Below, piece after piece: positions 21,835-44,766 of a DNA stretch of 64,000 nucleotides. Where the stretch lies: NCBI RefSeq assembly GCF_009909195.1, contig NZ_JAAAMU010000003.1, forward strand, positions 434,001-498,000, in the 5' to 3' direction. The DNA comes from Paenibacillus sacheonensis. GTDB lineage: Bacteria > Bacillota > Bacilli > Paenibacillales > Paenibacillaceae. How positions within the stretch are numbered: the first letter of the stretch is position 1; each line of letters opens with the position of its first letter. Position numbers and translations under genes: made by a program. The notes beneath the pieces are model-generated. The model was given only the letters and a program-made list of their open reading frames with translations, searched no databases and was not told the DNA's origin.

Positions 21835-22106
21835 TTGTTTCAAAGGATGAGCTCGATCCGATTCGTAAGCTTCACCGCTTCGTACCATGGCAAAACGGGG
21901 GTCTCATTCCCGTTAATTTCATTTACATAGTCTGAAGATAATACTTGCACCGAACGGTTTATCGGTGTGGATCAAAATAGTGCAAGTAGAGACTAGCACT
22001 TATATATTAAAATAGCTAGAACGATTTCAATGAGGAGGAACAGAAGGTTTTTCATATTTATTAATGAGATAGAGCGTTCAATTCTCAGAACTTGGAGGTC
22101 ACGAGC
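21835..22106. other. leader region of locus B, no gene seen
   Basis: A stretch at about 21829-21933 is open for 33 codons without a start or known motif. The rest is AT-rich and probably carries the promoter of the amidohydrolase operon, but no convincing -35/-10 pair was fixed. Confidence 0.4.
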
Positions 22107-25152: not shown

Positions 25153-25197
25153 TTCTTGCAGCTTAAGTTAGACCATATGTATGTCATAACGTTTCGA

Positions 25198-25234
25198 CCC
25201 TATGCGCAGGCTTTGCATGCGCATAGGGTTTGTT
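25198..25234 (+). terminator. attenuator/terminator between binding protein and AraC gene
   Basis: CCCTATGCGC (25198-25207) pairs exactly with GCGCATAGGG (25219-25228), followed by TTTGTTT. Confidence 0.8.
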
Positions 25235-25263
25235 TCCTTACAAGAACTAAGGATGTGATCGTA

Positions 25264-26190
25264 TTGGAAAAGCTGCTGGAGAAGAACCTACTGGATCCGG
25301 AAACGGAAATTCATTACGCCTATCACAAATCGATCAAGTCGATCACCGATATGCACGACCATGATTTCTACGAAATCTTTCTTATCACGAAGGGTACTGT
25401 CATGCATCTCATCAATGGGAAGAAGGAGCGTCTTGAAGCAGGCACGCTTTGCTTCGTCAGGCCATCTGACAAACATTGTTATGCGGGTGATGGCAACCGT
25501 TCGGTAGAAATGCTCAACCTTGCATTTTCTTCTCGTATGGTAATTGCAATGTTCGCTTTTTTGGACGGCGGCATTGAAATGGATCGTCTTCTGAATGGTC
25601 CGATGCCGATGGTTAAACAAATTGGGACGTATCAAACCGAAATTATTCGCGACAAAATCCATGAGATTACGGTTCTTCCAGGCATGCATAAGAAACAGAT
25701 TCGTTCTGAAATTCGCGTGCTTGTTGCAGATATAATGATGAGCTGCTTCTCAGATCGCCCAGACGCTCTAGCAGCAGTCGCTGTGCCGGATTGGCTGGTC
25801 GATCTCGCGAATGAAATGCGGATTAAAGAAAACTTTGCCGAGGGACTGCAGCGGCTGTACGAGCTGTCGGGCAAAAGTCCTGAGCATCTGACTCGTGTCA
25901 TCAAGAAGTGCTTCGGCAAGACGCCGACGGAATGGATTAACGAAATCAGGTTGCAGTATGCAGCAAACTTGCTTATGCAGACCGACGATGCGATCGTTGC
26001 CATCTGTATGGAAGCAGGGTATGAGAATCTCAGTCATTTCTACCATCTGTTTAAGGAACGTTACGATTGCACACCGGCGAAATTCCGCAAAGGAAATCGC
26101 AAGGTGGCGATCCCGGCATCCGGTCAAATGGCGCAAAGCTTTTATGAAATGCCGGAATATCAAAATAGAACAAAATCGCGTTCCGTCTAA
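25264..26190 (+). CDS. AraC-family regulator with cupin sensor domain
   Basis: 308 residues from TTG 25264 (AAGGA upstream). A longer frame from 25156 would run through the terminator hairpin and is unlikely. The N-terminal cupin (MHDHDFYEIFLITKG, RPSDKHCY) probably binds a small sugar ligand and the C-terminal AraC HTH includes GKTPTEWINEIRLQ and ENLSHFYHLFKERYDCTPAKFR. There is no receiver domain, so it is a one-component regulator, likely of locus B transport genes. Confidence 0.88.
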   Translation: MEKLLEKNLLDPETEIHYAYHKSIKSITDMHDHDFYEIFLITKGTVMHLINGKKERLEAGTLCFVRPSDKHCYAGDGNRSVEMLNLAFSSRMVIAMFAFLDGGIEMDRLLNGPMPMVKQIGTYQTEIIRDKIHEITVLPGMHKKQIRSEIRVLVADIMMSCFSDRPDALAAVAVPDWLVDLANEMRIKENFAEGLQRLYELSGKSPEHLTRVIKKCFGKTPTEWINEIRLQYAANLLMQTDDAIVAICMEAGYENLSHFYHLFKERYDCTPAKFRKGNRKVAIPASGQMAQSFYEMPEYQNRTKSRSV

Positions 26191-26286: not shown

Positions 26287-27024
26287 ATGACTTCTAAAAT
26301 AACCGCAGAAGAAGTTGCATTCTATCGGGAGCATGGCTATTACCTGTACAAGAAACCGGTTTTCTCCGCAGAGCAAATGGCAAAGCTTACGTCTATCTTC
26401 GAAGAACAGCTGGCGGAGAAGGGCGATAAGCTCTCGGATGAACTGGATACGCCGCACTTCCGCGACCCGCGCTTGCTGGAGTTTTTGCTGTCAGATGAAG
26501 TGCTTGATCTGGTTGAGCCGATTATCGGTCCGGACATTATTCTTTGGTCCAGCCATTTTATTTGTAAAGATCCATACAAGGGCCGCCAGACGCCTTGGCA
26601 CGAAGATTCCGCCTACTGGAATGGACGCTTCGATAAGTACGACAACATCGTCACGATCTGGCTCGCCATTGACCGCAGCAATAAAGAGAACGGCTGTATG
26701 CGGGTCATACCTGGCACCCATCACAACGGCTTCTCCGAATACGAAGATGTCGATATGGCGATCAACACGTTCCATGCCACGATCAAAAACATCGATGAGT
26801 CGCAAGCGGTCTATTTCGAGCTTGAGCCAGGTGAATGCTCGCTGCATGATTCCCGAATTATCCATGGCGCGACAGCAAATACAAGCCCATATCGCCGCTG
26901 CGGGTATACGATGAGATTTTTGTCTGCAGATACGAAGGTCGTTCCGGAGAAGAATGAAAATTGGCAAATCTTCTTGGCACGTGGCCAGGACCGTGCCGGA
27001 AATCAGTATGTGAACGTGAAGTAA
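26287..27024 (+). CDS. phytanoyl-CoA dioxygenase (PhyH) family Fe(II)/2-oxoglutarate oxygenase
   Basis: 245 residues, cytoplasmic, GGGGAGAG upstream. The iron facial triad is visible as H105 and D107 (WHEDSAYW) and H193 (IHGATAN), with R203/R204 as candidate 2-oxoglutarate ligands. The family hydroxylates or oxidatively demethylates small molecules, including N- and O-methyl groups. Between a regulator and the permeases, it probably modifies an imported substrate; an oxidative demethylation role would fit the N-methyl amine oxidase at 33612, but this is inference. Confidence 0.9.
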   Translation: MTSKITAEEVAFYREHGYYLYKKPVFSAEQMAKLTSIFEEQLAEKGDKLSDELDTPHFRDPRLLEFLLSDEVLDLVEPIIGPDIILWSSHFICKDPYKGRQTPWHEDSAYWNGRFDKYDNIVTIWLAIDRSNKENGCMRVIPGTHHNGFSEYEDVDMAINTFHATIKNIDESQAVYFELEPGECSLHDSRIIHGATANTSPYRRCGYTMRFLSADTKVVPEKNENWQIFLARGQDRAGNQYVNVK

Positions 27025-27116
27025 ATGAACCAAGTAATGGATGAACGTTAGGCCAAGAAGAAGTGCATCGGAAGAAGCATAAACTGCTCTTCCCTTGGCG
27101 ATTTCGCACGTCCAGT

Positions 27117-27133
27117 TGCGTAAACGTTTTGAC
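27117..27133 (+). promoter_or_regulatory. LacI-type operator before the permease genes
   Basis: CGTAAACGTTTTGAC has the AAACGTTTT core shared with the site at 23701-23713. Confidence 0.45.
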
Positions 27134-27160
27134 AAATTTGACGGTAAATGGGGGGCTATT

Positions 27161-28099
27161 ATGGCAAATGCACGCATGAGCAAGGCCGATCGAAGGGAAG
27201 AGAGATTTGGGTTTTTGTTCATCTCTCCCTGGCTAATCGGTTTCATTGTATTCGCAGTTTTTCCGATTATCGCATCGCTTCTCATTAGTTTTATGAAATG
27301 GGACATTTACCGATCACCCTCATGGGTCGGCTTTGATAACTTCAAACATCTGTTCCATGACAAGCTATTTTACAAATCGATGCGCGTTACGCTCGTATAC
27401 AGTGCTTTTGCAATTCCGCTTGGCCTGATCTTCGGACTTGCCTTGTCGCTGCTGCTCAACCTGAACATTCGGGGCATCAATACGTACCGGACCTTGTTTT
27501 ACTTGCCATCCGTCATCTCGGGCGTAGCCATTGCCATGGTGTGGAAATGGATCTTCAACAGTGACTACGGCTTGCTGAACTACATGCTTTCGCTAATCGG
27601 CATTCACGGACCGAAGTGGCTGGAGGATCCAAACTGGATTCTGACAACTTATATCATCATGAGCCTTTGGGGTATTGGCGGAAGCGCGATCATCTTCTTG
27701 GGCGGTCTGCAAAATATTCCAGGGCATCTGTACGAAGCAGCTAAAATAGACGGAGCAAAGCTGCTTCAGCGTTTCACTAAAATCACACTTCCGCTCCTTA
27801 CGCCGACACTGTTCTTCCAGCTCCTCATGGGCATTATCGGCTCGTTCCAAGTGTTCACGTCAGCGTTTATGATGAATGGCCGATCCGGCAGTGCGGGAGG
27901 TCCTGAGAATGAAGGATTGTTTTATATGGTTTACTTGTACCAGAAAGCGTTCAAGTCATTCGACATGGGCTATGCATCCGCCATGGCTTGGGTTGGCGGA
28001 CTGATCTCATTCGTCCTGGCAATCATCGTCTACAAGTCGCAAAGCAAATGGGTGTTCTATGATGCCGACGACAACAACGGGAAGGGGAAAACGGCATGA
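27161..28099 (+). CDS. sugar ABC permease (MalF/UgpA type)
   Basis: 312 residues from ATG 27161, with a G-rich ribosome site; an in-frame TTG at 27095 is rejected because the operator-like sequence lies between. It has six membrane segments, the first at SPWLIGFIVFAVFPI, and the EAA loop EAAKIDGAKLLQRF. Its last codon overlaps the next permease start (ATGA). It belongs to a different subfamily from the LplB-like permeases of loci A and C. Confidence 0.93.
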   Translation: MANARMSKADRREERFGFLFISPWLIGFIVFAVFPIIASLLISFMKWDIYRSPSWVGFDNFKHLFHDKLFYKSMRVTLVYSAFAIPLGLIFGLALSLLLNLNIRGINTYRTLFYLPSVISGVAIAMVWKWIFNSDYGLLNYMLSLIGIHGPKWLEDPNWILTTYIIMSLWGIGGSAIIFLGGLQNIPGHLYEAAKIDGAKLLQRFTKITLPLLTPTLFFQLLMGIIGSFQVFTSAFMMNGRSGSAGGPENEGLFYMVYLYQKAFKSFDMGYASAMAWVGGLISFVLAIIVYKSQSKWVFYDADDNNGKGKTA

Positions 28100-28932
28100 C
28101 CTACCGCATCCGCAAATTCGCCGGATCGAGCATATCTCATCTTGTTCTGGCTGCGCTGTCGCTTGCTTGTCTGATTCCTTTTATCTGGATGATTTCCACT
28201 TCATTGAAGACGAAGGCCGGCATGTGGGAATTTCCGCCCCGGTGGATTCCATCGCCACCGCTCTGGCACAACTATTACGACGCATTCAAGCTTGCGCCAT
28301 TCGGCACCTACATTACGAATACGCTTACACTTGAAGTGCTGACCATCGCGGGTCAAGTCATATCTTGTACGCTCATCGCATACGGTTTCTCCAGATTCCG
28401 ATTTCGCGGACGCGACGCCCTGTTCTTTCTCATGCTAGCGACCATGCTCATTCCCGAGCAAGTCATGATGATCCCGACGTTCTTGTTCTACAGCAAGCTC
28501 GGGTGGGTCGATACGTATCTGCCGCTCGTCGTTCCGGCGTTCTTCGGCAATGCGTTCTATGTCTTCCTCATGAGACAGTTCCTGCTGACGATTCCGAAGG
28601 ATCTTGACGAAGCTGCCAAAATCGACGGTGCGAACGAGTTTCAAATTTTGTGGAAGGTACTCGTTCCGATTCTTCGGCCGTCGCTGACGATCATCGTTGT
28701 GTATACGTTTACTGGTGTCTATAACGACTTCTTGTCGCCGCTCATTTACCTCAATTCGCCGGAGAAGTTTACGCTTGCCATCGGACTTGCGAACTTCGTT
28801 TCATCCCGGTCAACAGAGTGGAACTTGCTCATGGCTGCATCGACGGTCATTCTTCTTCCGCTGCTTCTCATCTACTATATGGCGCAGAAGAATTTGATTG
28901 GCGGTATCGCGAGCCTTGGCATCAAAGGTTAA
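28096..28932 (+). CDS. sugar ABC permease (MalG/UgpE type)
   Basis: 278 residues, second permease of the locus B importer. It has six helices and EAA loop EAAKIDGANEFQILW. It overlaps its partner by 4 bases. No ATPase follows, so a shared ATPase encoded elsewhere is expected. Confidence 0.93.
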   Translation: MTYRIRKFAGSSISHLVLAALSLACLIPFIWMISTSLKTKAGMWEFPPRWIPSPPLWHNYYDAFKLAPFGTYITNTLTLEVLTIAGQVISCTLIAYGFSRFRFRGRDALFFLMLATMLIPEQVMMIPTFLFYSKLGWVDTYLPLVVPAFFGNAFYVFLMRQFLLTIPKDLDEAAKIDGANEFQILWKVLVPILRPSLTIIVVYTFTGVYNDFLSPLIYLNSPEKFTLAIGLANFVSSRSTEWNLLMAASTVILLPLLLIYYMAQKNLIGGIASLGIKG

Positions 28933-29379: not shown

Positions 29380-30330
29380 ATGAAAGCAGCCGCAATATTC
29401 GGCCCTGGCGACGTCCGTGTGATGGACATTGAGAAGCCGGTGCCTGGTCCCGGGGAATTGCTAGTTGAAGTGAAAGCATGCGGGCTTTGTTCCTCGGAGC
29501 TTGGCATGTGGGTCGATTCGAATTTCAAGACGGATGAACCGATCTTCTTCGGCCATGAAGTGAGTGGAAACGTTGTCGCAGCCGGCGAAGGAGTAAGCAA
29601 GTTCGCAACTGGCGACCGCGTGACCATCTTCACTGATCGAGGAGGCTATGCAGAGTTCGTCACTGTCCCGGAGGATTGGGCGATTAAACTCGCTGATCAT
29701 GTTCCGTACGACTGGGCGCTCGGTGAGCCAATCGGATGTGCGATGAATGGAGCTTCAAGGTCCGGCATCGAGGTAGGCGACTCGGTCGTGCTGATCGGCA
29801 TCGGCTTCATGGGCGGACTAATCCTGCAAGGCGCGCGCTTGAAAGGCGCGTCGCGTATCATCGCCGTCGATACGCGTCCGGAATCATTCGAGCTGGCTAA
29901 GAAGCTTGGCGCGGATTATGTGATCGACGCAAGAGAGGGAGATGCCATGCAGCGCATCCTTGAGCTGACCGGCGGAGAAGGAGCCGACGTCGTCATCGAA
30001 GCGACCGGTAAGCAGGGTGCGCTCGATATGGCGACCGAAGCGGTACGAATCCGCGGACGGCTTGTCATCTTCGGCTACCACCAGGGAGGCAAACGCACCA
30101 TTGACGTGCAGGCTTGGAACTGGAAGGGACTCGACGTAATCAACGCGCATGAGAGAGATCCTCAGGCATATCTAAAGGGCATTAGAACCGGCATGAAGCT
30201 GCTCGAAGCTGGCCAGTTGGACATCGCACCGCTGCTTTCTCACTATTTTGAACTCAAAGATATTAACCGCGCTTTTCAGCTTGCTAAGAGTAAACCGGAC
30301 GGTTTCTTGAAAGCCGTCATCACATTTTAA
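29380..30330 (+). CDS. zinc-dependent alcohol/polyol dehydrogenase (MDR)
   Basis: 316 residues, cytoplasmic. The catalytic zinc site is C37 (CGLCSSE), H59/E60 (FFGHE) and E116 region (GEPIGCA). The nucleotide fold is GIGFMGG, with an acidic residue after the second strand (AVDTR) implying NAD. The four-cysteine structural zinc loop is absent, which explains the short length. Relatives oxidise sorbitol, inositol or threonine. It sits between RbsD and a Gfo/Idh oxidoreductase. Confidence 0.88.
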   Translation: MKAAAIFGPGDVRVMDIEKPVPGPGELLVEVKACGLCSSELGMWVDSNFKTDEPIFFGHEVSGNVVAAGEGVSKFATGDRVTIFTDRGGYAEFVTVPEDWAIKLADHVPYDWALGEPIGCAMNGASRSGIEVGDSVVLIGIGFMGGLILQGARLKGASRIIAVDTRPESFELAKKLGADYVIDAREGDAMQRILELTGGEGADVVIEATGKQGALDMATEAVRIRGRLVIFGYHQGGKRTIDVQAWNWKGLDVINAHERDPQAYLKGIRTGMKLLEAGQLDIAPLLSHYFELKDINRAFQLAKSKPDGFLKAVITF

Positions 30331-30352: not shown

Positions 30353-31459
30353 ATGAGAAGATTAAAAGTTGGTTTGGTTGGACTTGGCGAGGTTGCTCAA
30401 ATTACGCATTTGCCTATTCTAGAAAATCTATCGGATCGTTATGAAATTGCGGCGTTGTGCGATATTTCTCCAGCCCTGCTTCAAGTGCTGGGCGAGAAAT
30501 ACCGCGTGACGAACCTGTATACAGACTACAAGGCGATGGCAGCTCAAGAAGATCTCGATGCAGTGTTCGTCCTCAACAGCGATGAATACCATGCAGACTC
30601 GGCGATTCATGCGCTCAAGCACAATAAGCATGTATTGATCGAGAAGCCAATGACGCTCAATCATGCCGATGCCGATGCAATGATCAAGGCGCGCGATGAA
30701 GCTGGCGTGCAGGTGATGGTCGGTTACATGCGCCGTTTCGCACCTGCATTCACAGAGGCGCTGGAAGAGATCAAGACGCTCGGCCCGATTCAATACGCGA
30801 AGGTTCGCGACATCATCGGACCTAACCGCAAAATCATCGATCAATCGAGCACGGTGTTTCGATTCACGGATATTCCGAAAGAGCTGATGGATGATCGCTT
30901 TGCGCGCCGCTCGGCAATGATTAAAGAAGCGATTGGCGAAGTGCCCCAGGATATCTACAACGCGTACGGACTTCTCGCCGGCTTAAACAGCCATGACTTG
31001 TCCGCCATGCGCGAGCTGCTTGGGATGCCGAAGCGTGTTGTTTCGGCGGCACAATGGAACGGCGGCGGATACATAACTGCCATTCTTGAATTTGACGGCT
31101 ATTATGCGACATTCGAGACGGGCGTAGACGAACAGTGCCGCTTCGATGCTTCCATCGAGGTGATGGGCAAGTATAAGCAGCTGAACGTCAAATACGATAC
31201 GCCTTATATTCGCCACCTGCCGACGACGCTGGAAGTGAAGGAGACGGTCGGCGAGCAGTACAACGAGTACGTGAAGCGTCCGACATTGAAGGATCCTTAC
31301 ACGGTTGAGCTTGAAGCCTTCTACGAAGTCGTTACGAAGAACATTGCTCCGAAGACGACGATTGAGGACTATAAGCAGGATCTGGACATTTTCAAAATGA
31401 TTACGGATGCGCTGCTCGCGAACGAGCCAGAAGCGATTGATGTAAAGCTTGAAGTTTAA
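30353..31459 (+). CDS. Gfo/Idh/MocA-family oxidoreductase
   Basis: 368 residues. Rossmann motif GLGEVAQITHLP, the family EKP motif (VLIEKPMTLN) with catalytic Lys, and a C-terminal alpha/beta domain with GLNSHDLSAMREL where the catalytic His normally lies. It is NAD(P)-dependent and oxidises a ring hydroxyl of a sugar or inositol. First of four such enzymes in locus B; longer than the others. Confidence 0.9.
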   Translation: MRRLKVGLVGLGEVAQITHLPILENLSDRYEIAALCDISPALLQVLGEKYRVTNLYTDYKAMAAQEDLDAVFVLNSDEYHADSAIHALKHNKHVLIEKPMTLNHADADAMIKARDEAGVQVMVGYMRRFAPAFTEALEEIKTLGPIQYAKVRDIIGPNRKIIDQSSTVFRFTDIPKELMDDRFARRSAMIKEAIGEVPQDIYNAYGLLAGLNSHDLSAMRELLGMPKRVVSAAQWNGGGYITAILEFDGYYATFETGVDEQCRFDASIEVMGKYKQLNVKYDTPYIRHLPTTLEVKETVGEQYNEYVKRPTLKDPYTVELEAFYEVVTKNIAPKTTIEDYKQDLDIFKMITDALLANEPEAIDVKLEV

Positions 31460-31472
31460 GGAGGGTTTCAGC

Positions 31473-33575
31473 ATGGCCGACACGAAAAAATTGCCGCTTA
31501 AACAGTGGGCGTGCGGAGACGTCGTGTATACATTTGGCCAGGAGGATGGACGGCTTCACGCCGTCCAAGTCCGCGGCAAAAGTGTATGGCAGGGCGAATT
31601 GTCGCTCGATATCGGCGCTGACGGCACGTATGGGACGAGGCGTCTTGAATGGCACAGCTTTGAAGGTGCCAATACATGGGAGCTGCCTCGGATTGTGCCG
31701 GCGGATAGTGAAGGTGCAGAAACTCAGTGGCAATTCGTTGGCTGGGACGAACAGGATGAAGAGGTAGTAAATAGTGGCGTTACTATGGCTCCGGCGATTC
31801 TGGCTGCCCGATATCGCACTTCCGGACTATCATTGTCGGTTCGTTATAGTGCGACGGGAACGAATGCAGCAATCGGTGCGGTATTCGAGAATACTGGTGC
31901 CGCTACCATTCATGTGAACGGCGTTGCTTTTATGGCGAGCCAGCAGCTTGGGGCGGGCGGAACCGAATTTGATTTCCCAGGCAACGTACCTTACAAAGTG
32001 TTCGAAGCTTCAGCGCTAGACGACAGAATGCCTATCGAAACAGGGCTTGTTAATCCGGTTGTTAGGCTGAAGTCTGGCGATGAGCGGACGAACTTCATCT
32101 TCGTGGATGAAGAAGAGAAGTGGGGGACCGGCGTTTACCGTGATGGCGATAGGCTGCATCTGGTGAACCTTGCAGCGGTAGAGGCGAATCTGGCACCGGG
32201 CGAGAAGCTCGCATGCGGAACGCTATATATTCAGCCAATCGGAAGCGGCGACTCATTAGAACCGATACGCGAGTTGTACATCGGCAAAGGCTGGATACCG
32301 CCAACAGACGGTCATCGCGAAGGCGTGCTCTATTCCTGTCATCCGCATGGCACGATGGATTCGAACTTCCCGATTAACCGGGATATGGCTGCTTTTGCAG
32401 ATGAGCTGCCGGCTCTTCGTGATATGGGTATCGATCATGTCTGGGTACTTCCGATTTTCGAGCATTTGGAACGCGGCGTCTATCATCCTACGGATCAGCG
32501 GATTGTGGACGAACGCTACGGCGGCGACGAGGCGGTCGAAACGTTTAGCCGCAAGCTGCACGAGCTCGGTATGACACTGCTCTTCGACTATGTTCCGCAT
32601 GGTCCAGAGCTGGAGGATCCGCTAGGCATCGAATTCCGCAGATGGGCGTCCCTCCGCAGAAACGGTGAGCCGCAGATCGAATGGAACTGCTTGAGCTTCG
32701 ATATGGCGAATCCCGAATACCTCGAGTATGCGAAGGAGCTCGTCAAGGAGCATGTCGAACGCTTCAATGTCGATGGCGCACGGATCGATTGCGCGATGGG
32801 CGGCTTAACGAATTGGCGTCCTTGCGGCACGAATCGTCCGAGCAACTCGAATCTCAAAGGCGGCATCGAGATCAGTAAAGCGATCCGCGATGGATTCCTC
32901 GAAGCAGGCAAGAAGCCGCTCTCGACGCCGGAGAATTTCAATCCGGTGCCGGCGTACGCGCCGTACACCGATGTGTTCTACGATATGGCGCTGTATCGAG
33001 TGTTCTTCGAGATGGAGGCGGAGGGCTTAGCTCCTGTCGACTTCGCGCGCGAGCTTACGCGCTGGCTGGAAGCCGAAATGCTGAGCAATGTTCCGGGCTA
33101 CGTGAAGCTGCGCTTCTTAGGTAACCATGACACGGTATCGTGGGTGTGGAACAAGTCGCGTGCCACTGCGTGGTACGGCGAAGAGCGGGCGAGAGCGCTC
33201 TGGGTGCTGCTCAGCTGCATCGACGGGATGCCAATGCTCTATCAAGGTGACGAAGACCCTTCGATCTATATGAAAGAAGGACCGGATTTAAGAGGCTTCT
33301 TCCGAGAGCTGTTCCAAATGCGGGGGCAGTACCTCAATAACGATTTCACAACGGAATATGTATATACCGGCACGCCTGTCGTTACCTTCTGGCGGAAGAA
33401 CGGAGCGGACACGCGGTTCATCGCGGTCAACCTATCGAACGAACCAGTAACGTTCGCTGCTCCGGCATCGCTGTCAGAAGCCGTGATCGTATACGGGAGT
33501 GCGGAGTCAAACTCGAATGCGGGTGGCGATACTGCAACAATCGGTGCCTATGGAAGTGCGGTATGGTCGATTTGA
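31473..33575 (+). CDS. GH13 (alpha-amylase family) glycosidase
   Basis: 700 residues from ATG 31473, with GGAGGG upstream. No signal peptide, so cytoplasmic. The N-terminal 270 residues form beta-sandwich-like domains. The barrel then shows region I DYVPHG, nucleophile D439 in GARIDCAMGG, acid/base E487 in TPENFN and D553 in GNHDTVS. All three catalytic carboxylates are therefore present. The region I sequence and large N-terminal part differ from ordinary amylases or alpha-glucosidases. It may cleave an alpha-glycoside imported by the cluster's transporter. Confidence 0.88.
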   Translation: MADTKKLPLKQWACGDVVYTFGQEDGRLHAVQVRGKSVWQGELSLDIGADGTYGTRRLEWHSFEGANTWELPRIVPADSEGAETQWQFVGWDEQDEEVVNSGVTMAPAILAARYRTSGLSLSVRYSATGTNAAIGAVFENTGAATIHVNGVAFMASQQLGAGGTEFDFPGNVPYKVFEASALDDRMPIETGLVNPVVRLKSGDERTNFIFVDEEEKWGTGVYRDGDRLHLVNLAAVEANLAPGEKLACGTLYIQPIGSGDSLEPIRELYIGKGWIPPTDGHREGVLYSCHPHGTMDSNFPINRDMAAFADELPALRDMGIDHVWVLPIFEHLERGVYHPTDQRIVDERYGGDEAVETFSRKLHELGMTLLFDYVPHGPELEDPLGIEFRRWASLRRNGEPQIEWNCLSFDMANPEYLEYAKELVKEHVERFNVDGARIDCAMGGLTNWRPCGTNRPSNSNLKGGIEISKAIRDGFLEAGKKPLSTPENFNPVPAYAPYTDVFYDMALYRVFFEMEAEGLAPVDFARELTRWLEAEMLSNVPGYVKLRFLGNHDTVSWVWNKSRATAWYGEERARALWVLLSCIDGMPMLYQGDEDPSIYMKEGPDLRGFFRELFQMRGQYLNNDFTTEYVYTGTPVVTFWRKNGADTRFIAVNLSNEPVTFAAPASLSEAVIVYGSAESNSNAGGDTATIGAYGSAVWSI

Positions 33576-33611: not shown

Positions 33612-34763
33612 ATGGAACTGGAGCAATACGATGTGATCGTCGTTGGAGCAGGCGCCATGGGCATGTCCGCCGGGTACCACGCAGCTCGAGCAGGGCGAAG
33701 GACGCTCCTGATCGACGCGTATGATCCGCCGCATGCACAAGGTACGCATCATGGCGAAACACGGATAATCCGCCATGCTTACGGTGAGGGCAGGGCGTAT
33801 ACGCCGATGGCGCTCCGTGCGCAAGCGCTCTGGTATGAACTGGAGCGGGAAACCAGCCGCAAGCTGTTTCTGGAGACAGGTTTCTTGCAAGCCGGCGAGC
33901 CTGGTTCCCAAATGCTGACCGAGATGCAAGGCAGCGCCAAGGAGCATAGGCTTCCGGTCGAAGTACTGAACGGCTGTGAGATCAAGCGGCGGTGGCCCGG
34001 ATTGGCACTTCCAGACTCGTTCGTCGGCTGTTACGAAGCGGGCAGCGGCGTGCTGCTCAGCGAAGCTTGCGTGCAAGCCTATCGGGATGCGGCTGTCGCG
34101 CGCGGTGCCACGATGCTGCCTAACACTCCGGTAATCGCGATTCATCCGAATAAAGAAGGTGCGGAGGTTGTGACTGCGTCAGGGAAGCTCTATCGGGCCA
34201 AGTCGCTTATCGTGACCGCAGGCAAGTTCGCCGGTCCGATGCTCGCGAAGCTTGGCTTGAGCCAGATGCCGCTGTCGCCGCTTCGCAAAACGGTGGAATG
34301 GTTCAAGCCGCTCACGGAGGATTATGCGCCGGACACATTCCCTGCCTTTCTGTTCGATCTCCCCGAAGGCATCTTCTTCGGTTTCCCGGATATCGGAGGC
34401 GAAGGCGTGAAGGCAGGACGGCATGACGGAACGATTCGGCCGATGCCGGCAGACGGCCTTCTGCTGCCTCACGGTACGTTCGAAGACGACGGCCAAGACT
34501 GCGCTGCATACATTGCGCGTTATATGCCAGGCATCAAACCGGAAATCATCAAAGGCAGCGCATGCACCTATACAATGACGCCGGATGAGCACTTCATACT
34601 TGACCGCCACCCGGATTATCCGCATATCGCGATTGGCGCCGGATTCTCCGGTCATGGCTTCAAATTCGCCAGCGCGAACGGCGAAATATTGGCGAAGCTG
34701 GCCGCGGGCGAAGACCCTGGTTTCGATCTTTCTTTATTCACACTGCGTCGCTTTAATCCCTAA
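33612..34763 (+). CDS. SolA/sarcosine-oxidase-type FAD amine oxidase
   Basis: 383 residues. FAD-binding motif DVIVVGAGAMGMSAGY at the N-terminus, GTHHGETRIIRHAYGEG typical of N-methyl-L-tryptophan and monomeric sarcosine oxidases, and the covalent-flavin Cys about C318 in GSACTYTMTPDEHFILD. These enzymes oxidise secondary amines, often removing an N-methyl group as formaldehyde with hydrogen peroxide release. Its place inside a sugar-catabolic operon is unusual and suggests a nitrogen-bearing, possibly N-methylated substrate. Confidence 0.9.
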   Translation: MELEQYDVIVVGAGAMGMSAGYHAARAGRRTLLIDAYDPPHAQGTHHGETRIIRHAYGEGRAYTPMALRAQALWYELERETSRKLFLETGFLQAGEPGSQMLTEMQGSAKEHRLPVEVLNGCEIKRRWPGLALPDSFVGCYEAGSGVLLSEACVQAYRDAAVARGATMLPNTPVIAIHPNKEGAEVVTASGKLYRAKSLIVTAGKFAGPMLAKLGLSQMPLSPLRKTVEWFKPLTEDYAPDTFPAFLFDLPEGIFFGFPDIGGEGVKAGRHDGTIRPMPADGLLLPHGTFEDDGQDCAAYIARYMPGIKPEIIKGSACTYTMTPDEHFILDRHPDYPHIAIGAGFSGHGFKFASANGEILAKLAAGEDPGFDLSLFTLRRFNP

Positions 34764-34797
34764 ACGCCGGAAAGCTGAAAGGAAGGCTGAAACGACT

Positions 34798-36960
34798 ATG
34801 GAACGCGGCATTTACTTCGATGCATGGTACCGGGATGAACATTGCTTCCACCCGAGCTTGCCGATGCGCAGAACGCAAATGGTAGAAGATCTCAAAGATT
34901 ACGAGGCGACGCTGCTCGTCTGGTCCGCTCTAGGCGGAGGCAGCCTGTCGCTCCCTTATTTGGAAGAAGAGGCGTACGGCGAAGTACCGCAGCGCCTTCG
35001 CGTATATGGCTATATGAACGACCAAGAGTTTATTCGCGAGTGCGACAAGCACGGCATCAAAGTGTTCGGCGTCGTGTTTGAAGTACAAGGCTGGGAGTTC
35101 CCGGCGGAAATCAGCGAAGACGGGACCCAACTGCTAAGCTTGAACATTCTCCGCGGTGAAGGCAACAAGACATGGTACGGGTTGCGCGAGTTCAGCCAGG
35201 ACAAATATCCGAAGCTATTCAAAAAGACGTTCCGCGATTACTTCCCGGATGGTCTTACGAACAGTGCTGGCGAGCCGGTGACCGACCTGTGGGGAGAATG
35301 CGCAGCGCGCAAATGGGACGGCACTGCTGTTCATGCAGCTTGGGTCGAAGTGGTCGGTTATGAGCAAATCTGCTATCAGATGTGCCGCAACAATCCGGTA
35401 TGGCGGGCATATTTGAAGAAGATTATCGAGATTCAAATCGATGCTGGCGTTCACGGCGTCCATCTGGACGAATGCGAGCTGCCGATTACGGCGATTAATT
35501 ACGGCGGCTGCTTCTGCAAGGACTGCATGAAGCCGTTCAGTGCCTATCTGAAAGAACGCCAACAGCTTGGATTGCTGCCGGCCGAGTTTGCCGACATGGA
35601 CTTCGACACGTTCCACTATGGCGAATACATCAAGGCGAACGGCATCGATTTCCCAGGACCGAATCGCGGGGCAATTCCGCTGTTCTCGGACTATTTCCAA
35701 TTCCAGATGAAAATTATGACCGGTTACTTCAAAGAGCTGACCGACCATGTCCGCGCTTACGGCAAGTCCAAAGGACGCGACGTGCTGGTGTCGGGGAATT
35801 TCTTCCACGTTATGCACCAATACATGCCGCTGCAGCCTGAAGTGGACATTATCGCGACAGAGATGCGCAATACGCTGTACCGTCAAGCCTACTGGTACCG
35901 CTATGCGAACGGCTTCGCCGGCGGCAAGCCGATGACGGTCGTCGAGAACCCGTACGGCGGTATCGTACCGGAACTGCTTGAGAATTTGAAGAATGGCCGC
36001 ATGGCAGAGCAATTCCAGCTCATGCTGCTCGAGGCGACGACGTTCGGCTGCAATTTGTCGATTCCATACGGCGGCTGGATGGGGAATACGATCCGCGACG
36101 CGTTCTATGCGCCGAAAGAGCCGACGATGGCGGTGCAGCAGTTCCTCAAGAAGAATGATCACTTGATCTCGAACATCTCCGGAGCTGAGATCGCAGTTAA
36201 CTATAGCTATCCAAGCTACTGGCATCGGGAGAATGATGCCGTAGGCGATGACGGTGACCAAGCGACGATGCTGTCATCCGCGGTAAACAAGGACGTCATC
36301 ATGCCGTTCTGGGATATTATTCGACAGATGAGCAAGCAGCATGTGCCGTATGATGTCATCATCTCGGATGATGGGGAGCTGTTCCAAGACGAATTTACGC
36401 TGGATCGCCTCTCCAAGTACAAATGCCTCGTGCTTCCGGATAATGACATCATGACCGCGAAGCAGCTTTCAACGGTGCTTGAGTATCTAGATGGCGACCG
36501 CAAAGTCGTCGTTTACGGACGACTCGCGAACAACGGCAGCGAAGAAGCACGCGCACTCGCTGCGCGCGTTCTTTCACATCCGGGTACGCAGATCTGCGAG
36601 GAGTCTGACAAGCTGTACGGCTTCATTACAGCCATTCGCGGCATGCTGCCGAACGCTAAGTTCCAGATCGAAGTCGACGGATCACCGGACATCGGAATTA
36701 ACCCGCATGCCCTTGAGAACGGCGGCTTAGCGGTTCATCTTGTGAACTATGGCTTTGACCGCCAGCAGGATTGCGTTGTTCCCGTTACAGCCGCATTCCG
36801 AGTGAGGACACCGCGAGCAGTAACGGAAGTAACGGTCCACACGCTGAACGGTGAAGACCTTCAAGCCGAATGGCGTTACGATGCCGATTCGGATGGCTGC
36901 CTATCCGTACAAATCGCCAAGCTACCGCTATACGCGCTCGTAGAATGCAGGATGGTGTAG
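34798..36960 (+). CDS. putative TIM-barrel glycoside-hydrolase-like protein, unassigned family
   Basis: 720 residues from ATG 34798 (AAAGGAAGG upstream). Frame upstream of this overlaps the oxidase gene and is not coding. The barrel-like N-terminal half has GIYFDAWYRDEHCFHP, IKVFGVVFEVQGWEF and GVHLDECELP (D224, E225), followed by a paired-Cys loop (CFCKDCM) that could bind metal. The C-terminal part has a Rossmann-like and a small beta-sandwich domain as in GH42-like or GHL enzymes. No signal peptide. Family assignment is uncertain and it may be a new glycosidase family. Confidence 0.7.
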   Translation: MERGIYFDAWYRDEHCFHPSLPMRRTQMVEDLKDYEATLLVWSALGGGSLSLPYLEEEAYGEVPQRLRVYGYMNDQEFIRECDKHGIKVFGVVFEVQGWEFPAEISEDGTQLLSLNILRGEGNKTWYGLREFSQDKYPKLFKKTFRDYFPDGLTNSAGEPVTDLWGECAARKWDGTAVHAAWVEVVGYEQICYQMCRNNPVWRAYLKKIIEIQIDAGVHGVHLDECELPITAINYGGCFCKDCMKPFSAYLKERQQLGLLPAEFADMDFDTFHYGEYIKANGIDFPGPNRGAIPLFSDYFQFQMKIMTGYFKELTDHVRAYGKSKGRDVLVSGNFFHVMHQYMPLQPEVDIIATEMRNTLYRQAYWYRYANGFAGGKPMTVVENPYGGIVPELLENLKNGRMAEQFQLMLLEATTFGCNLSIPYGGWMGNTIRDAFYAPKEPTMAVQQFLKKNDHLISNISGAEIAVNYSYPSYWHRENDAVGDDGDQATMLSSAVNKDVIMPFWDIIRQMSKQHVPYDVIISDDGELFQDEFTLDRLSKYKCLVLPDNDIMTAKQLSTVLEYLDGDRKVVVYGRLANNGSEEARALAARVLSHPGTQICEESDKLYGFITAIRGMLPNAKFQIEVDGSPDIGINPHALENGGLAVHLVNYGFDRQQDCVVPVTAAFRVRTPRAVTEVTVHTLNGEDLQAEWRYDADSDGCLSVQIAKLPLYALVECRMV

Positions 36961-36963
36961 CCG

Positions 36964-38377
<1,414 letters not shown>

Positions 38378-38417: not shown

Positions 38418-39437
38418 ATGAAAGCGACCATTAAGGAAGTAGCCAAAGAAGCGGGAGTGTCGATTTCGACGGTCTCACGCGTGCTCAATGGCAGAGACAG
38501 AGTAAGCCGCCATACGATTAATCGTGTGCGGGAAGTTATCGAACGTCTGCAATTTCAGCCGGACTTCGTCGCGCGCACTATGATTATGAAGAAGACGAGC
38601 ACGATTGGTCTCGTCGTTCCCCAGCTATCCAATGAATATTGGGCTTTCATATCCGAAGTGATTCAAGATGAGCTTTGGGCGCATGGGTATACGACGCTTA
38701 TTTGCTCGACGGATAATGAACCGGAGAAAGACAGCGCGTATTTGAAAATGTGCCTCGAGCGTCGAATGGATGGCGTCATCTACTGCTCCTCTCCGCACTA
38801 CAGCTCGGAAACGAACGAACAGATCGACGCGCTGAAGGCAGCGGGCGTTCCTATTGTCTCGCTTGACCCGAGTATATTGGGCGTAAGCTGCGTTGTCGGT
38901 GATCATATGCAAGGCACGCTTACAGCGGTTGGGCATTTGATCCAGTGCGGCTATAGCCGTATCGCTTATATCGGAGGACCGGCGGTTTCGATCGAGCGCG
39001 AGTTTGGTTACCGCAAGGCGCTTATGATGTATGGCTATCAAGTGGATGAAAGACTGATTCGGCTAGTAAAGGGCCAGTCGTTTGCGGACGGCTACGAGGG
39101 GCTGCAATCGCTTCTATCGACAGGCATTTCGTTCGATGCACTGTTCTGCGGCAATGATCTGCTTGCTTTCGGTGCGATAAAGGCGATGGAAGAAGTGGGC
39201 ATCCGTGTACCGGACGACGTTGGCGTTATTGGATTTGACGATATTTTCTCGGCGCGGCTGTTCAAGCCGGCACTGACGACCGTGAGACAACCGATTCAGG
39301 ACATCGGCCAAGAGCTCGTTAATCTGCTGCTTCTGGCACTGGAGACAGAGCCGGAACGGCGTACGGTACGCAAAATCGTCATACCGACGGAGCTTATTAT
39401 CCGGGAAAGCTCGGGCAGCGGACCCAAAAAAAGATAG
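38418..39437 (+). CDS. LacI-family transcriptional repressor
   Basis: 339 residues. N-terminal HTH ([22 protein letters not shown]) and hinge, then a periplasmic-binding-protein-like effector domain ([35 protein letters not shown]). It lies in the middle of locus B, same strand. The AAACG-type palindromes at about 23665, 23701, 26235 and 27117 are plausible targets, so it may shut the transport operon off without substrate. Confidence 0.92.
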
Positions 39438-39523
39438 CAAAAATACTGTCTTATTTGAATGCCGAATGCCGCCTCGCGAACAGCGTGTGCGGTATTCGTT
39501 TCATAAAAGGGGAGCGTGATCGG

Positions 39524-40585
39524 ATGAAGACGATTAAAGTTGGAGTCGTAGGCATTGGGGCAATTGCGCATATCTTTCATCTGCCTAATTATAAGAACCA
39601 TCCGCAAGTGGAACTTGCTGCAGTAGCCGACATTGATTTCGGACGCGCGCAGCAAGCGGCTGAGCAATGGGGAGCAGTGGCTTATGAATCTGCGGAAGCG
39701 ATGTTTCGGGAAGCCGGACTTGATGCGGTGAGCATCTGTACGTTTAACAAAAGCCATGCGGAGCTCGCTATTGCGGCACTTGAGACGGGGCTCGATGTGC
39801 TCGTGGAGAAGCCGATGACGGCAACTGCCGAGGAGGCGGCGCGACTCGTCGAAACGGCAGAGCGGACGGGGCGCATACTGATGGTCGGCATGAGCAGCCG
39901 CTATCGCCATGATGTTCGCGCGCTGAAAGGCATTGCGGAGTCGGGCGAGCTTGGCGATATTTATTTTGCCAAAGCAAGAATCATTCGCCGTCGCGGCGTG
40001 CCGAAAGGCTGGTTTACATCGAAGGAGCTGTCTGGCGGCGGACCAATGATGGATATCGGCGTTCATGCGCTTGATGCGGCGTGGTGGCTAATGGGGATGC
40101 CGGATCCGGACAATGTACTCGGCAAGCTGTTCCACCGGATTGCACCGTACGAAACGAAGGTGAATGGCTTCTACGAGGCAGCATCGGTGGATAACAAAAC
40201 CGAGGAAATCTATGACGTTGAAGATTTCGGTACGGCATATATTACGTTCGCGAATGGCGCGGCATTGACGGTCGAGGCGAGCTGGGCAGCCAACGGAGCG
40301 CAGGATGATGCGATGAAGATTGAGCTGTACGGCACGAAGGGGGGCGCAAGTCTGGATCCGCTGTTCCTCTTTAAGGAGTCGAATCTCGTACCCGTTGAAA
40401 GCAGTTTGAAAGTGGAAAGCAACGACTATTACAAAGAAGAAATTGATCATTTTATCCAGTGCGTCATTCACCGTGAACAGCCGGTTTCGGATGCTCGCCA
40501 AGGGCTGACGATTATGCGGATATTGGATGCGATTCGAGTTTCTTCCGAAACGAACGGTGCTGCGAAAGCAGCGAGCGTGGAGTAA
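39524..40585 (+). CDS. Gfo/Idh/MocA-family oxidoreductase
   Basis: 353 residues from ATG 39524 (AAGGGGAG upstream); a longer frame from 39455 has no ribosome site. Rossmann GIGAIAHIFHLP, catalytic-Lys motif VEKPMTA and substrate-domain MDIGVHALDAAWW with the catalytic His. It resembles the 30353 enzyme at the N-terminus. Its stop overlaps the ROK kinase start (TAATG). Confidence 0.9.
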   Translation: MKTIKVGVVGIGAIAHIFHLPNYKNHPQVELAAVADIDFGRAQQAAEQWGAVAYESAEAMFREAGLDAVSICTFNKSHAELAIAALETGLDVLVEKPMTATAEEAARLVETAERTGRILMVGMSSRYRHDVRALKGIAESGELGDIYFAKARIIRRRGVPKGWFTSKELSGGGPMMDIGVHALDAAWWLMGMPDPDNVLGKLFHRIAPYETKVNGFYEAASVDNKTEEIYDVEDFGTAYITFANGAALTVEASWAANGAQDDAMKIELYGTKGGASLDPLFLFKESNLVPVESSLKVESNDYYKEEIDHFIQCVIHREQPVSDARQGLTIMRILDAIRVSSETNGAAKAASVE

Positions 40586-41529
40586 TGAGCCGCATCTATG
40601 CAGGCGTTGATGTCGGCGGGACAGGGACGGTAATCGGCCTGTTCGACGAACAGCGCCATTTACTTGTCAAAGTGCAGCTCGATACGCTCGGCAGCAATCG
40701 GGAACGGTTTGGAAATGCAGATGCGTATACAAGGATGGTTGCTCAGCATATACGGGATGCAGTAGCGAGACTGCCGGGAGATCCGGCGACGCTCGTCGCG
40801 GCAGGCTTCGGTATTCCGGGTCAAGTGAACCCGGAGGATGGCGTCGTATCGGATGCGACGAATCTAGGCTGGAGGCATGTTCCTTTTGCGTGGATGATGG
40901 GGGATCTTCTTCAGGTCCCCGTTCGGATCGACCACGATGTTCGCACGTTCGCGAAGGGCGAGCTTATGGCTGGTGCCGCTCAAGGGCGAAGTCACGCGAT
41001 ATGCCTGACAATCGGGACGGGCATCGCCGCTGCGATCGCGATAGATGGAAAACTCGTCCGCGGCGGCCATAACCTCGCTGGCGAGATCGGTCATGATGTC
41101 GTGACTGGCTTGACGCGCCAATGCCCTTGCGGGAAGATCGGCTGCCTCGAGACCGTCGTCTCAGGTCCAGGCATCTCGCGCCTTGCTGCTGCAGCCGGAT
41201 TGACCAGCTGGCAGAACGAAGGGGGGATCCCAACGGCTGAGGATGTGGCCCGGCATTGCTCGGACCTTAACGAGCAAGCGCTCGGTATTTATCGTTACGC
41301 TGCTGAACTTTTGGCGGAAAAGCTGGAAACGGCTGTTGCGCTGCTGGATCCTGAAGTAATTGTCATCGGAGGCGGTGTCGCGAAGGCAGGGGAGCCGTTT
41401 CTCGGGCCAATTCGGGAACGACTGCATGATCGGTTTCCGTGGCTGAGAGGCAAGCTGTCTGTCATGCATGCAGAGCTAGGAGACGAGGCGGCATTGATTG
41501 GCGCTTTTCATCATGCATATGAAGCTTAG
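40585..41529 (+). CDS. ROK-family sugar kinase
   Basis: 314 residues. ATP-binding DVGGTGTVIGLF at the N-terminus, a catalytic Asp in RIDHDVRTFAKGE, and the ROK zinc motif CPCGKIGCLE (about 180-189). No HTH, so it is a kinase, not a repressor. It probably phosphorylates glucose, N-acetylglucosamine or a related sugar at C6, making the substrate for the deacetylase next door. Confidence 0.92.
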   Translation: MSRIYAGVDVGGTGTVIGLFDEQRHLLVKVQLDTLGSNRERFGNADAYTRMVAQHIRDAVARLPGDPATLVAAGFGIPGQVNPEDGVVSDATNLGWRHVPFAWMMGDLLQVPVRIDHDVRTFAKGELMAGAAQGRSHAICLTIGTGIAAAIAIDGKLVRGGHNLAGEIGHDVVTGLTRQCPCGKIGCLETVVSGPGISRLAAAAGLTSWQNEGGIPTAEDVARHCSDLNEQALGIYRYAAELLAEKLETAVALLDPEVIVIGGGVAKAGEPFLGPIRERLHDRFPWLRGKLSVMHAELGDEAALIGAFHHAYEA

Positions 41530-41548
41530 AAAAGGAGCTGCGAATGGC

Positions 41549-42727
41549 TTGGACTTGGCAACGACGGCTTATGTGAATGCGGAGTTATATACTGGCTATG
41601 AGCTGATTCGTGGCGGTGGATTTATAGCAGCAGGAGACGGAGCGATCGTGTCTGTCGGCAGCCCGAGTTTGATAGAGTCAGAATTGGCAAAAGCAGATCG
41701 AATCATAGATTTGGATGGCAAAATCGTTCTGCCCGGCTTCGTCGATGTCCACGTGCATGGCGGAGGCGGCTATGATCTGCTGCGAGGTGAGCCGGAGGAC
41801 TATCGCGGTGCGGCGAGATTCCATGCCTCGCACGGTACGACTGCAATGCTTGCAACGACCGGCGGGGCGCCTGAGCGGACAACCCTTGGGATACTGCTCC
41901 ATGCGCTGCAAGCTCAGACAGATAGGACATATGACGGTGCCGACTATATCGGCGTCCACTTGGAAGGCCCGTTTCTGAACCCGGTCCGTAAGGGCGCGTT
42001 CGACGAGTCGCTGCTCCATCCGCCGGATCAGGGCGAGATAGAGCGGTATATCGAGGCTTCCGGCGGTACGATTCGCCTCATTACGGTCGCTCCCGAGCTG
42101 GCTGGCGGCGAACCATTCGTAAAGTGGCTGACCGCTCAAGGCATCCGCGTTTCGATTGGGCATTCGAATGCTACCTATGAACAGGCGCTTCAGGCAATCG
42201 AGTGGGGCGCGTGTCATACAACCCATCATTTTAACGGGATGAGTCCCTTTCATCATCGCGATCCGGGCGTTGCAGGGGCGGGGATGACGCAGACGAGCTT
42301 GACGACGGAGCTGATTGCCGATGGCATTCATGTTCATCCGGCGGCAGTGCGATTCTTATTCGACCTGAAAGGCACATGGAATGTATGCGTCATTACGGAC
42401 GCGGTTTTCCAAGCGGGCCTGCCTGACGGCGATTACGGAGAAACGGTCGTTTCTGAAGGCAAAATCTACATGAAAGGGACCGAGACGCTGGCAGGCAGCT
42501 CGGCTACGATGCTCCATTCGCTGCGCCGCGTGCTGGACTATACCGGGCGCACGCTCGGTAACGTGCTTCCGTCCTTTACCATCGTTCCGGCACGAGAAGC
42601 GGGAGCGGATAAGCGCAAAGGCTCGCTCTCTGCAGGGCTTGATGCGGACTTTCTCATTTTGGACGATCAACTGACTTTATTAGAGACGTATGTCCGAGGG
42701 CACCGCGTCTATAAGAAGGAGAAATGA
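41549..42727 (+). CDS. nagA: N-acetylglucosamine-6-phosphate deacetylase
   Basis: 392 residues from TTG 41549, which has AAAAGGAG upstream; ATG 41513 inside the kinase gene is an alternative. Metal and active-site residues are in place: HVHGGGGYD, HLEGPFLNP (Glu), GHSNATYE, THHFNGM and catalytic Asp in TDAVFQAGLPDG. The enzyme removes acetate from an N-acetylhexosamine 6-phosphate. No nagB deaminase is in the window, so further steps rely on other enzymes or on genes elsewhere. Confidence 0.9.
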   Translation: MDLATTAYVNAELYTGYELIRGGGFIAAGDGAIVSVGSPSLIESELAKADRIIDLDGKIVLPGFVDVHVHGGGGYDLLRGEPEDYRGAARFHASHGTTAMLATTGGAPERTTLGILLHALQAQTDRTYDGADYIGVHLEGPFLNPVRKGAFDESLLHPPDQGEIERYIEASGGTIRLITVAPELAGGEPFVKWLTAQGIRVSIGHSNATYEQALQAIEWGACHTTHHFNGMSPFHHRDPGVAGAGMTQTSLTTELIADGIHVHPAAVRFLFDLKGTWNVCVITDAVFQAGLPDGDYGETVVSEGKIYMKGTETLAGSSATMLHSLRRVLDYTGRTLGNVLPSFTIVPAREAGADKRKGSLSAGLDADFLILDDQLTLLETYVRGHRVYKKEK

Positions 42728-42731
42728 ACCT

Positions 42732-43709
42732 ATGCTTAAGATCGGCATCATTGGCGCGGGCATGATGGGAGGAACGCATGCGTCCACATATGCGAATATC
42801 TACGGCGTGGAGCTTGTCGGCGTGGCTGATGAAAGAGTAGAAGCGGCTCAGAGGCTGGCTGCTGAGCATGAGGCTAGAAGCTATGGTTCTATTGAGGAGC
42901 TTATTCAGGTCGAGAATCCGGATATCATCGATATTTGCTTGCCTACTGATTTGCATAAGGCGCATGTCTTATATGCGGCTTCTTGCGGGAAGCATGTTTT
43001 CTGCGAGAAACCGATTGCGATGTCGGTCGAGGATGCGCTCGAAATGACTGAAGCTTGCAGCGCGGCCGGAGTTACGTTCATGATCGGTCATGCGCTGCGT
43101 TTCTCTCCGGACTATCAGATGGCGAAAGAAATTGTAGAAGAAGGGAAGCTTGGCACCATCGGCACGGTGCGGATGATTCGTGAAGGTGCTCCGCCTGGAT
43201 GGTCGGCATGGTTTAAGGATAAGTCCCGATCCGGCGGCGTCATTGTCGATCTCGGCATTCATGAGCTGGATTGGCTCCGCTCTACATTCGGCGAGCCACT
43301 GCGGGTTTATGCCAAGATTGCGGAAGAGGGGCTCCCCGGCGAGCATGCCTTCGTCTCGATTCGGATGAAGAGCGGCGTCATCGCGCATCTGACGGCGAGC
43401 TGGGCGCTGCCGGACGGATTCCGTTCCTTCCTTGAGCTTGCGGGAACCGAAGGTCTAATGAAGCTGGATTCGGATGATCATAAGCCGATTGCCGTTACAC
43501 GCAGGGGTGCAGGTGCAGAGCTGCCGTCGTCATCGTGGGAGAGTCCGCTGAACCGTTCTCCTTACGAGATTGAGCTTCGGCATTTTGTCGATTGTGTTCG
43601 CACGGGAACCGAGCCGCTCGTTACGGGTACAGATGCTGCGAAGTCACTCGAGCTGGCGCTTGCGGCCCTTCGATCCGCACAAACTGGCGAAGTTGTCACA
43701 TTCGAATAG
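42732..43709 (+). CDS. Gfo/Idh/MocA-family oxidoreductase
   Basis: 325 residues from ATG 42732, following AAGGAG near the NagA stop. Rossmann GIIGAGMMGGTHA, EKP motif (FCEKPIAMS) and VDLGIHELDWL with the catalytic His. Third family member in locus B. It has low similarity to the other three outside motifs, arguing for a different substrate. Confidence 0.9.
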   Translation: MLKIGIIGAGMMGGTHASTYANIYGVELVGVADERVEAAQRLAAEHEARSYGSIEELIQVENPDIIDICLPTDLHKAHVLYAASCGKHVFCEKPIAMSVEDALEMTEACSAAGVTFMIGHALRFSPDYQMAKEIVEEGKLGTIGTVRMIREGAPPGWSAWFKDKSRSGGVIVDLGIHELDWLRSTFGEPLRVYAKIAEEGLPGEHAFVSIRMKSGVIAHLTASWALPDGFRSFLELAGTEGLMKLDSDDHKPIAVTRRGAGAELPSSSWESPLNRSPYEIELRHFVDCVRTGTEPLVTGTDAAKSLELALAALRSAQTGEVVTFE

Positions 43710-43726
43710 AGGAGGAAGACAAACGG

Positions 43727-44710: not shown

Positions 44711-44730
44711 TCATGACCAACCGAACAATG

Positions 44731-44766
44731 AAGGGAAGAGCACCGTTACTCTTCCCTTCGAATTAT
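44731..44766 (+). terminator. terminator of locus B
   Basis: AAGGGAAGAG (44731-44740) pairs with CTCTTCCCTT (44749-44758), followed by an AT-rich tail ending in TTTT. Confidence 0.85.

Follow-up and report, generated by a model that had tools for sequence, protein, structure and literature searches.

Three groups of flavoenzymes are the closest described systems for the gene that is the subject of this study, namely the monomeric sarcosine oxidase (MSOX) of Bacillus, the N-methyl-L-tryptophan oxidase of E. coli (MTOX, the E. coli SolA) and, at a greater distance, the fructosyl-amine oxidases (Amadoriases). Lys265 of MSOX has an oxygen-activating role, and the fructosyl-amine oxidases cleave secondary amines that bear a carboxylate. 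According to a published account (PMC12582975), the substrate carboxylate in MSOX is held by R52, Y55 and K348, and F100, M245 and Y254 are pocket residues; in the same account, T239 of MTOX, the equivalent of MSOX M245, tunes the use of sarcosine versus N-methyl-tryptophan. Searches of the literature, with most subscription journals outside their coverage, found no paper joining a SolA-type oxidase with a gene cluster of the kind described here. That cluster lies in a stretch of 64,000 nucleotides of Paenibacillus sacheonensis DNA, which was analysed as a whole and is called the window below.

The oxidase gene and its family

The enzyme, here called SolA, is encoded by an open reading frame at 33612-34763 of the forward strand that specifies 383 amino acids without an internal stop and whose ATG is preceded by an AAAGGAG stretch. 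Pfam DAO matches residues 7-363 with 172.4 bits (cut-off 27.9). Among solved structures, monomeric sarcosine oxidases come closest (1el5, E 2e-113, 382.4 bits), followed by MTOX (2uzz) at E 4e-83, with the fructosyl-amine oxidases matched at E 5.8e-16 (3djd, 61.6 bits), and the identity is 47% to Bacillus MSOX and 39% to MTOX. The gene is real and encodes a sarcosine-oxidase-type flavoenzyme, as the first-pass annotation had proposed from the letters of the DNA, and the covalent-flavin Cys named there was located at C318. The curated profiles divide, in that SolA passes the NCBIfam model PRK11259, 'N-methyl-L-tryptophan oxidase', with 416.7 bits against a cut-off of 257, and fails that of soxA_mon (TIGR01377) with 361.1 against 479.65. 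Assignment as an N-methyl-L-tryptophan oxidase by curated score was considered and rejected, given a Leu-for-Thr pocket residue and the 39% identity. At E<=0.001, SolA is the only match of its type in the genome of the window.

Layout of the gene cluster

The surrounding cluster extends from 23770 to 44710 and all of its genes run rightward, with an unassigned open reading frame between the permeases and the zinc dehydrogenase:

23770..25152 (+), ABC solute-binding protein (Pfam/NCBIfam profile scan)
25156..26190 (+), AraC-family regulator (Pfam scan)
26287..27024 (+), PhyH-family oxygenase, found in all 11 GHL-bearing genomes
27095..28932 (+), two ABC permeases (Pfam scan)
29380..30330 (+), zinc-type alcohol/sugar dehydrogenase (profile scan)
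30353..31459 (+), Gfo1, a Gfo/Idh/MocA dehydrogenase, in all 11 GHL clusters
31449..33575 (+), GH13-like protein, 708 aa, not an obligate partner of SolA
33612..34763 (+), SolA, an MSOX-type FAD oxidase, 383 aa, with flavin Cys C318 and clamp R54/Y57/K351
34798..36960 (+), GHL, a 720-aa remote GH42-like protein, directly 3' of SolA in 7/9 clade members
36964..37839 (+), xylose-isomerase-like TIM barrel, at 30.7 bits just below the Pfam cut-off of 31.1
37832..38377 (+), cupin of the D-lyxose-isomerase family (profile scan)
38418..39437 (+), LacI-family regulator, in 7/7 GHL clusters with SolA versus 1/4 without
39455..40585 (+), Gfo2, a Gfo/Idh/MocA dehydrogenase, 6/7 versus 0/4
40585..41529 (+), ROK-family sugar kinase (Pfam/NCBIfam scan)
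41498..42727 (+), NagA-type N-acetylglucosamine-6-phosphate deacetylase, 6/7 versus 0/4 (local)
42690..43709 (+), Gfo3, a Gfo/Idh/MocA dehydrogenase, 7/7 versus 0/4
43592..44710 (+) as listed, with the true start probably further in, Gfo4, a Gfo/Idh/MocA dehydrogenase, 7/7 versus 0/4
44729..44760 (+), terminator-like 12-bp stem just 3' of Gfo4

The GH13-like gene ends at 33575, which leaves a gap of 36 bp to SolA, and GHL starts at 34798, 34 bp after SolA. This start is common to 11/11 aligned homologues (MERGIYFD); the mechanically defined frame, 34585-36960, overlaps SolA. The first-pass description of SolA as embedded in a glycosidase operon with short gaps thus held. The stem 3' of Gfo4 is a possible end of the operon and only suggestive of it, as the terminator-like sites in the region number 16 against a shuffle mean of 17.7 and show no excess.

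The NagA of the window lies above its curated cut-off (276.8 versus 225.65), and its alignment with the solved NagA 2vhl is good. For formaldehyde handling, none of the cluster genes scanned exceeded the curated cut-off of any model; the zinc dehydrogenase matches formaldehyde-dehydrogenase models below theirs, at best with 119 bits versus 512.9. Upstream of the cluster, at 22092-23174, there is an amidohydrolase-2 gene that may be part of the pathway, because a homologue of 79% identity heads the corresponding cluster of P. psychroresistens (L082:4117-5244).

The glycosidase-like neighbours

The GH13-like protein scores 64.8 with the Pfam alpha-amylase profile (cut-off 22), with a best stretch of about 80 of the 446 profile positions. 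D447, E495 and D561 are invariant in 8/8 sequences, and these we take to be the catalytic Asp/Glu/Asp triad of GH13. Its N-terminal domain of about 270 aa is beta-rich and, unusually for GH13, the weak model of it fits best to galactosaminidase/alpha-galactosidase structures of the GH36 type. GHL, on the other side of SolA, reaches E<=0.001 with none of the Pfam or NCBIfam families; its Pfam GH42 score is 11.9 bits, below the cut-off of 21, and its resemblance to the GH42 beta-galactosidases (PDB 3tts) is weak in sequence and of low confidence in fold. The models of both proteins are poor, with a mean pLDDT of 51.9 for GHL and 59.0 for the GH13-like protein, and their fold matches serve as leads only. 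Of the 'GH13 and GH-like' pair in the first-pass annotation, the GH13 half is backed by Pfam, and the glycosidase nature of GHL, which has no such match, is remote.

Whatever its activity may be, GHL is a rare protein and a highly conserved one. It was found in 10/394 genomes of the family at E<=1e-50 and, in addition, in P. psychroresistens, and a phylum-wide sample of 398 genomes at E<=1e-20 yielded it in the window's own genome only. The mean column identity over 11 sequences is 80%. With 65-96% identity to the window copy in 10 other genomes, it ranks with the best conserved proteins that the cluster encodes.

A clade of related oxidases

Relatives of SolA are common, with at least one at E<=0.001 in 265 of 295 genomes of the family, and only eight of these are at 64-100% identity to SolA, the next being at 50%. 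An order-wide sample of 392 genomes added a single clade member, from Paenibacillus psychroresistens (G896), and a contig scan put names to other members, namely P. taihuensis, P. lycopersici, Cohnella pontilimi, a Cohnella MAG and C. kolymensis. In a quick tree built from 88 rows (80 relatives, the five loci L003, L037, L009, L010 and L019, the window, MSOX and MTOX, with one identical pair among them), nine sequences of the Paenibacillus/Cohnella type formed one clade with an SH-aLRT of 100, apart from both MSOX and MTOX. The SolA clade is thus a separate subfamily of an enzyme that is well known, set in a conserved but uncharacterised cluster.

Active site and pocket

SolA C318 corresponds to the flavin-linking C315 of MSOX, and the Cys is kept in 9/9 clade members, as are K265, H269 and Y317 (MSOX numbering); a covalent bond to FAD is predicted by analogy with MSOX. 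The carboxylate clamp R54/Y57/K351, which corresponds to R52/Y55/K348 of MSOX, is likewise intact in 9/9 and was also found in 77/77 of the other SolA-relative loci compared. As a family-wide trait, it does not discriminate the clade from its relatives, and on residue comparison it argues against an amino sugar that has no carboxylate. The first-pass annotation had suggested that the imported glycoside probably carries a nitrogen, perhaps as an N-methyl group, and that SolA and the PhyH oxygenase provide two alternative demethylations. Since the clamp is kept in all nine members, an N-methyl amino sugar set free by the action of GH13 is disfavored as the substrate, even with the placement in a sugar cluster conserved and with NagA and ROK genes that imply amino-sugar intermediates.

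The pocket itself sets the clade apart. The pair M101 and L247 (F100M and M245L in MSOX terms) is present in 9/9 clade members and in 0/79 of the other rows, with position 100 lying near an alignment indel whose flanking Gly and Ser align in the rows displayed. MSOX Y254 is replaced by Phe in four of the nine (the window, P. taihuensis, G087 and P. lycopersici) and is Tyr in the remaining five and throughout the 77 other loci. Leu rather than Thr occupies the position of MTOX T239 and MSOX M245 in 9/9. The changes of the clade keep a similar bulk, and we therefore infer from the residues that the substrate is probably a small N-alkyl amino acid.

Linkage to GHL

Among the 80 of 120 SolA relatives kept in the contig scan, GHL lay no more than 10 kb from SolA at 5/6 clade loci versus 0/74 loci of other relatives (Fisher 2.5e-7). 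Of the 74, 26 are cut by contig ends and 48 keep both 10-kb flanks; with the other relatives restricted to these 48, the comparison gave 5/6 versus 0/48 (Fisher 1.9e-6), and as the rows are related, neither Fisher value is a true probability. GHL directly follows SolA in seven of the nine clade members with gaps of 5-36 bp, across 64-100% SolA identity and in more than one genus. The adjacency is more than chance, and the conserved link to the glycosidase cluster, which the first-pass annotation had named as a test, is present in the form of GHL.

Two loci fit less neatly. G012 carries SolA without GHL behind an ABC transporter of the multiple-monosaccharide type (scores below cut-offs), and C. 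kolymensis has SolA, cupin and NagA without GHL nearby, downstream of an operon of the ergothioneine-utilisation type, in which two ergothioneine-type gene products exceed curated cut-offs. The operon (L081:331-9813) encodes a thiohydantoin desulfurase, ErtE-like and ErtD-like proteins, an aromatic ammonia-lyase and an importer of the betaine type.

A clade member that adjoins an operon for ergothioneine, an N-methylated betaine, is what might be expected if SolA were an ordinary sarcosine oxidase for one-carbon, choline- or creatine-type scavenging that was inherited in a sugar cluster by happenstance, and the 47% identity to MSOX, the small conservative pocket and the status of SolA as the only such gene in its genome at E<=0.001 are in keeping with this. 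We nevertheless consider it unlikely, as happenstance sits poorly with an adjacency to GHL that persists at 64-100% identity in more than one genus, with the order changing and the set retained, and that is seen near none of the 74 other relatives (48 with full flanks); nor did the scan of genes in the window's cluster recognise any for betaine, creatine or dimethylglycine.

Co-distribution across GHL clusters

A co-distribution matrix was made for the 11 GHL clusters, at no less than 45% identity and 50% coverage and local to the fetched loci; the clusters come from few and related genomes, so that Fisher values only rank the partners. SolA is present in seven of the clusters and absent from four (G182, G220, G239 and G184). 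Its closest companions are Gfo3 and Gfo4, in 7/7 of the clusters with SolA and 0/4 of those without, followed by NagA and Gfo2 (6/7 versus 0/4) and LacI (7/7 versus 1/4), with GH13 at 6/7 versus 2/4, cupin at 5/7 versus 2/4 and TIM at 3/7 versus 2/4. NagA homologues do occur elsewhere in the four genomes that lack SolA, the best in each being at 39-52% identity. Gfo1 accompanies all 11 clusters (7/7 and 4/4). PhyH is found locally in 6/7 and 4/4, and the seventh cluster with SolA, that of the Cohnella MAG, has PhyH at 91% on another contig, which brings PhyH to 11/11 of the GHL-bearing genomes, including 7/7 of those with both SolA and GHL.

Several candidate partnerships were set aside on these counts. 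GH13, which the first-pass annotation had named in a pair with SolA, was ruled out as an obligate partner by its 6/7 versus 2/4, and the impression from an early subset that SolA travels with the cupin/TIM isomerase has the full matrix against it. A swap between SolA and PhyH was ruled out as well, since PhyH is in every GHL-bearing genome found, with and without SolA, so that the two supposed demethylation steps do not replace one another. With no GH13 association, a constant PhyH and an intact clamp, N-demethylation of an amino sugar is very unlikely and the least probable of the readings weighed here. The broader idea of a nitrogenous pathway fared better, with NagA in 6/7 of the SolA-GHL clusters and three genes of the nucleoside hydrolase family in 2/7 (L079:14169-15128, L079:18775-19671 and L082:13296-14282). 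The ribose-5-phosphate isomerase RpiA was observed in two GHL clusters without SolA (L067 and L068). Together with the nucleoside hydrolases, this hints that a pentosyl N-glycoside takes part in the pathway at some point.

The cluster of P. psychroresistens is arranged as Gfo2-NagA-Gfo3-Gfo4-SolA-GHL, followed by a nucleoside-hydrolase-family gene and LacI, and Gfo4 ends at 10000 directly before SolA, which starts at 10001 (L082); the gene set is kept and the order is not. A piece of Gfo4 of 36 residues beside LacI in G182 (L066:9252 region) suggests loss of the module there. The cupin gene of G087 was matched in two pieces (L032:9832-10110), and the two cases together are possible signs of decay of an accessory module.

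The strict company of SolA with two Gfo/Idh dehydrogenases (7/7 versus 0/4) also bears on a further explanation, in which SolA is a glyco-amino-acid oxidase that breaks the C-N bond in a conjugate of the Amadori or opine kind, where the nitrogen of an amino acid bears the sugar, and yields a dicarbonyl sugar or an aldose for Gfo3/Gfo4 and the cupin isomerase. Such a conjugate bears both a secondary amine and a carboxylate, and fructosyl-amine oxidases are relatives (E 5.8e-16). SolA is far nearer to MSOX than to these enzymes, its pocket residues are not enlarged and the scan of the cluster genes recognised none of the deglycase type, and we rate the explanation as rather improbable. A bolder version, in which GHL as a new glycosidase family would free a secondary-amine conjugate of sugar and amino acid, SolA would cut the C-N bond and Gfo3/Gfo4 would reduce the carbonyl sugar, appears more doubtful still; if true, it would mean an O2-dependent opening of N-linked glycoconjugates in Paenibacillaceae.

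A proposed role for SolA

The best explanation, to which we give about an even chance, is that SolA is an N-dealkylase that depends on O2 and acts on a small N-substituted amino acid arising in an uncharacterised glycoconjugate pathway. By analogy with MSOX, SolA would carry its flavin covalently and work as an O2-dependent oxidase of the monomeric sarcosine oxidase kind, in which R54, Y57 and K351 would bind a small N-substituted alpha-amino acid by its carboxylate. The N-alkyl carbon would be oxidised over the flavin, and the imine released would hydrolyse to an amino acid and an aldehyde, with H2O2 as a by-product, if the chemistry is that of MSOX. An imported nitrogen-bearing glycoconjugate would enter by ABC uptake and then be opened by GHL (sometimes GH13); PhyH and Gfo1 would make up the constant core of the pathway, with SolA in an optional second module together with Gfo3, Gfo4, Gfo2 and NagA. 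The amino acid, judging by gene context, would come out of the glycoconjugate. Counting against the N-dealkylase explanation are the two clade members without GHL nearby and the four GHL clusters without SolA.

The clade places a sarcosine-oxidase-type enzyme of soil bacteria in a conserved sugar-catabolic context together with GHL, a glycosidase-like family. SolA, Gfo3 and Gfo4 come and go together in the 11 clusters as the core stays, which offers a handle on the pathway. Knowing the substrate of SolA would identify the glycoconjugate that the cluster serves and assign functions to GHL and the constant PhyH. It would also tell if 'N-methyl-L-tryptophan oxidase', the automatic label, is misleading.

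Comparison with known systems

With MSOX of Bacillus (1el5), SolA shares the fold family, the flavin Cys, K265, H269, Y317, the clamp R52/Y55/K348 and 47% identity, and it differs in falling under the soxA_mon cut-off, in the clade-wide F100M and M245L with Y254F in 4/9, and in its sugar cluster. E. coli MTOX (2uzz) has the same catalytic residues, and the window SolA passes its model PRK11259, but the identity is 39%, Leu replaces Thr in the side-chain pocket and the gene context is another. The fructosyl-amine oxidases (3djd) are detectable relatives at the distance given above, with a chain of 438 versus 383 residues in SolA. As for the neighbour, GHL bears a weak resemblance to the GH42 beta-galactosidases (3tts) and is a highly conserved family of its own.
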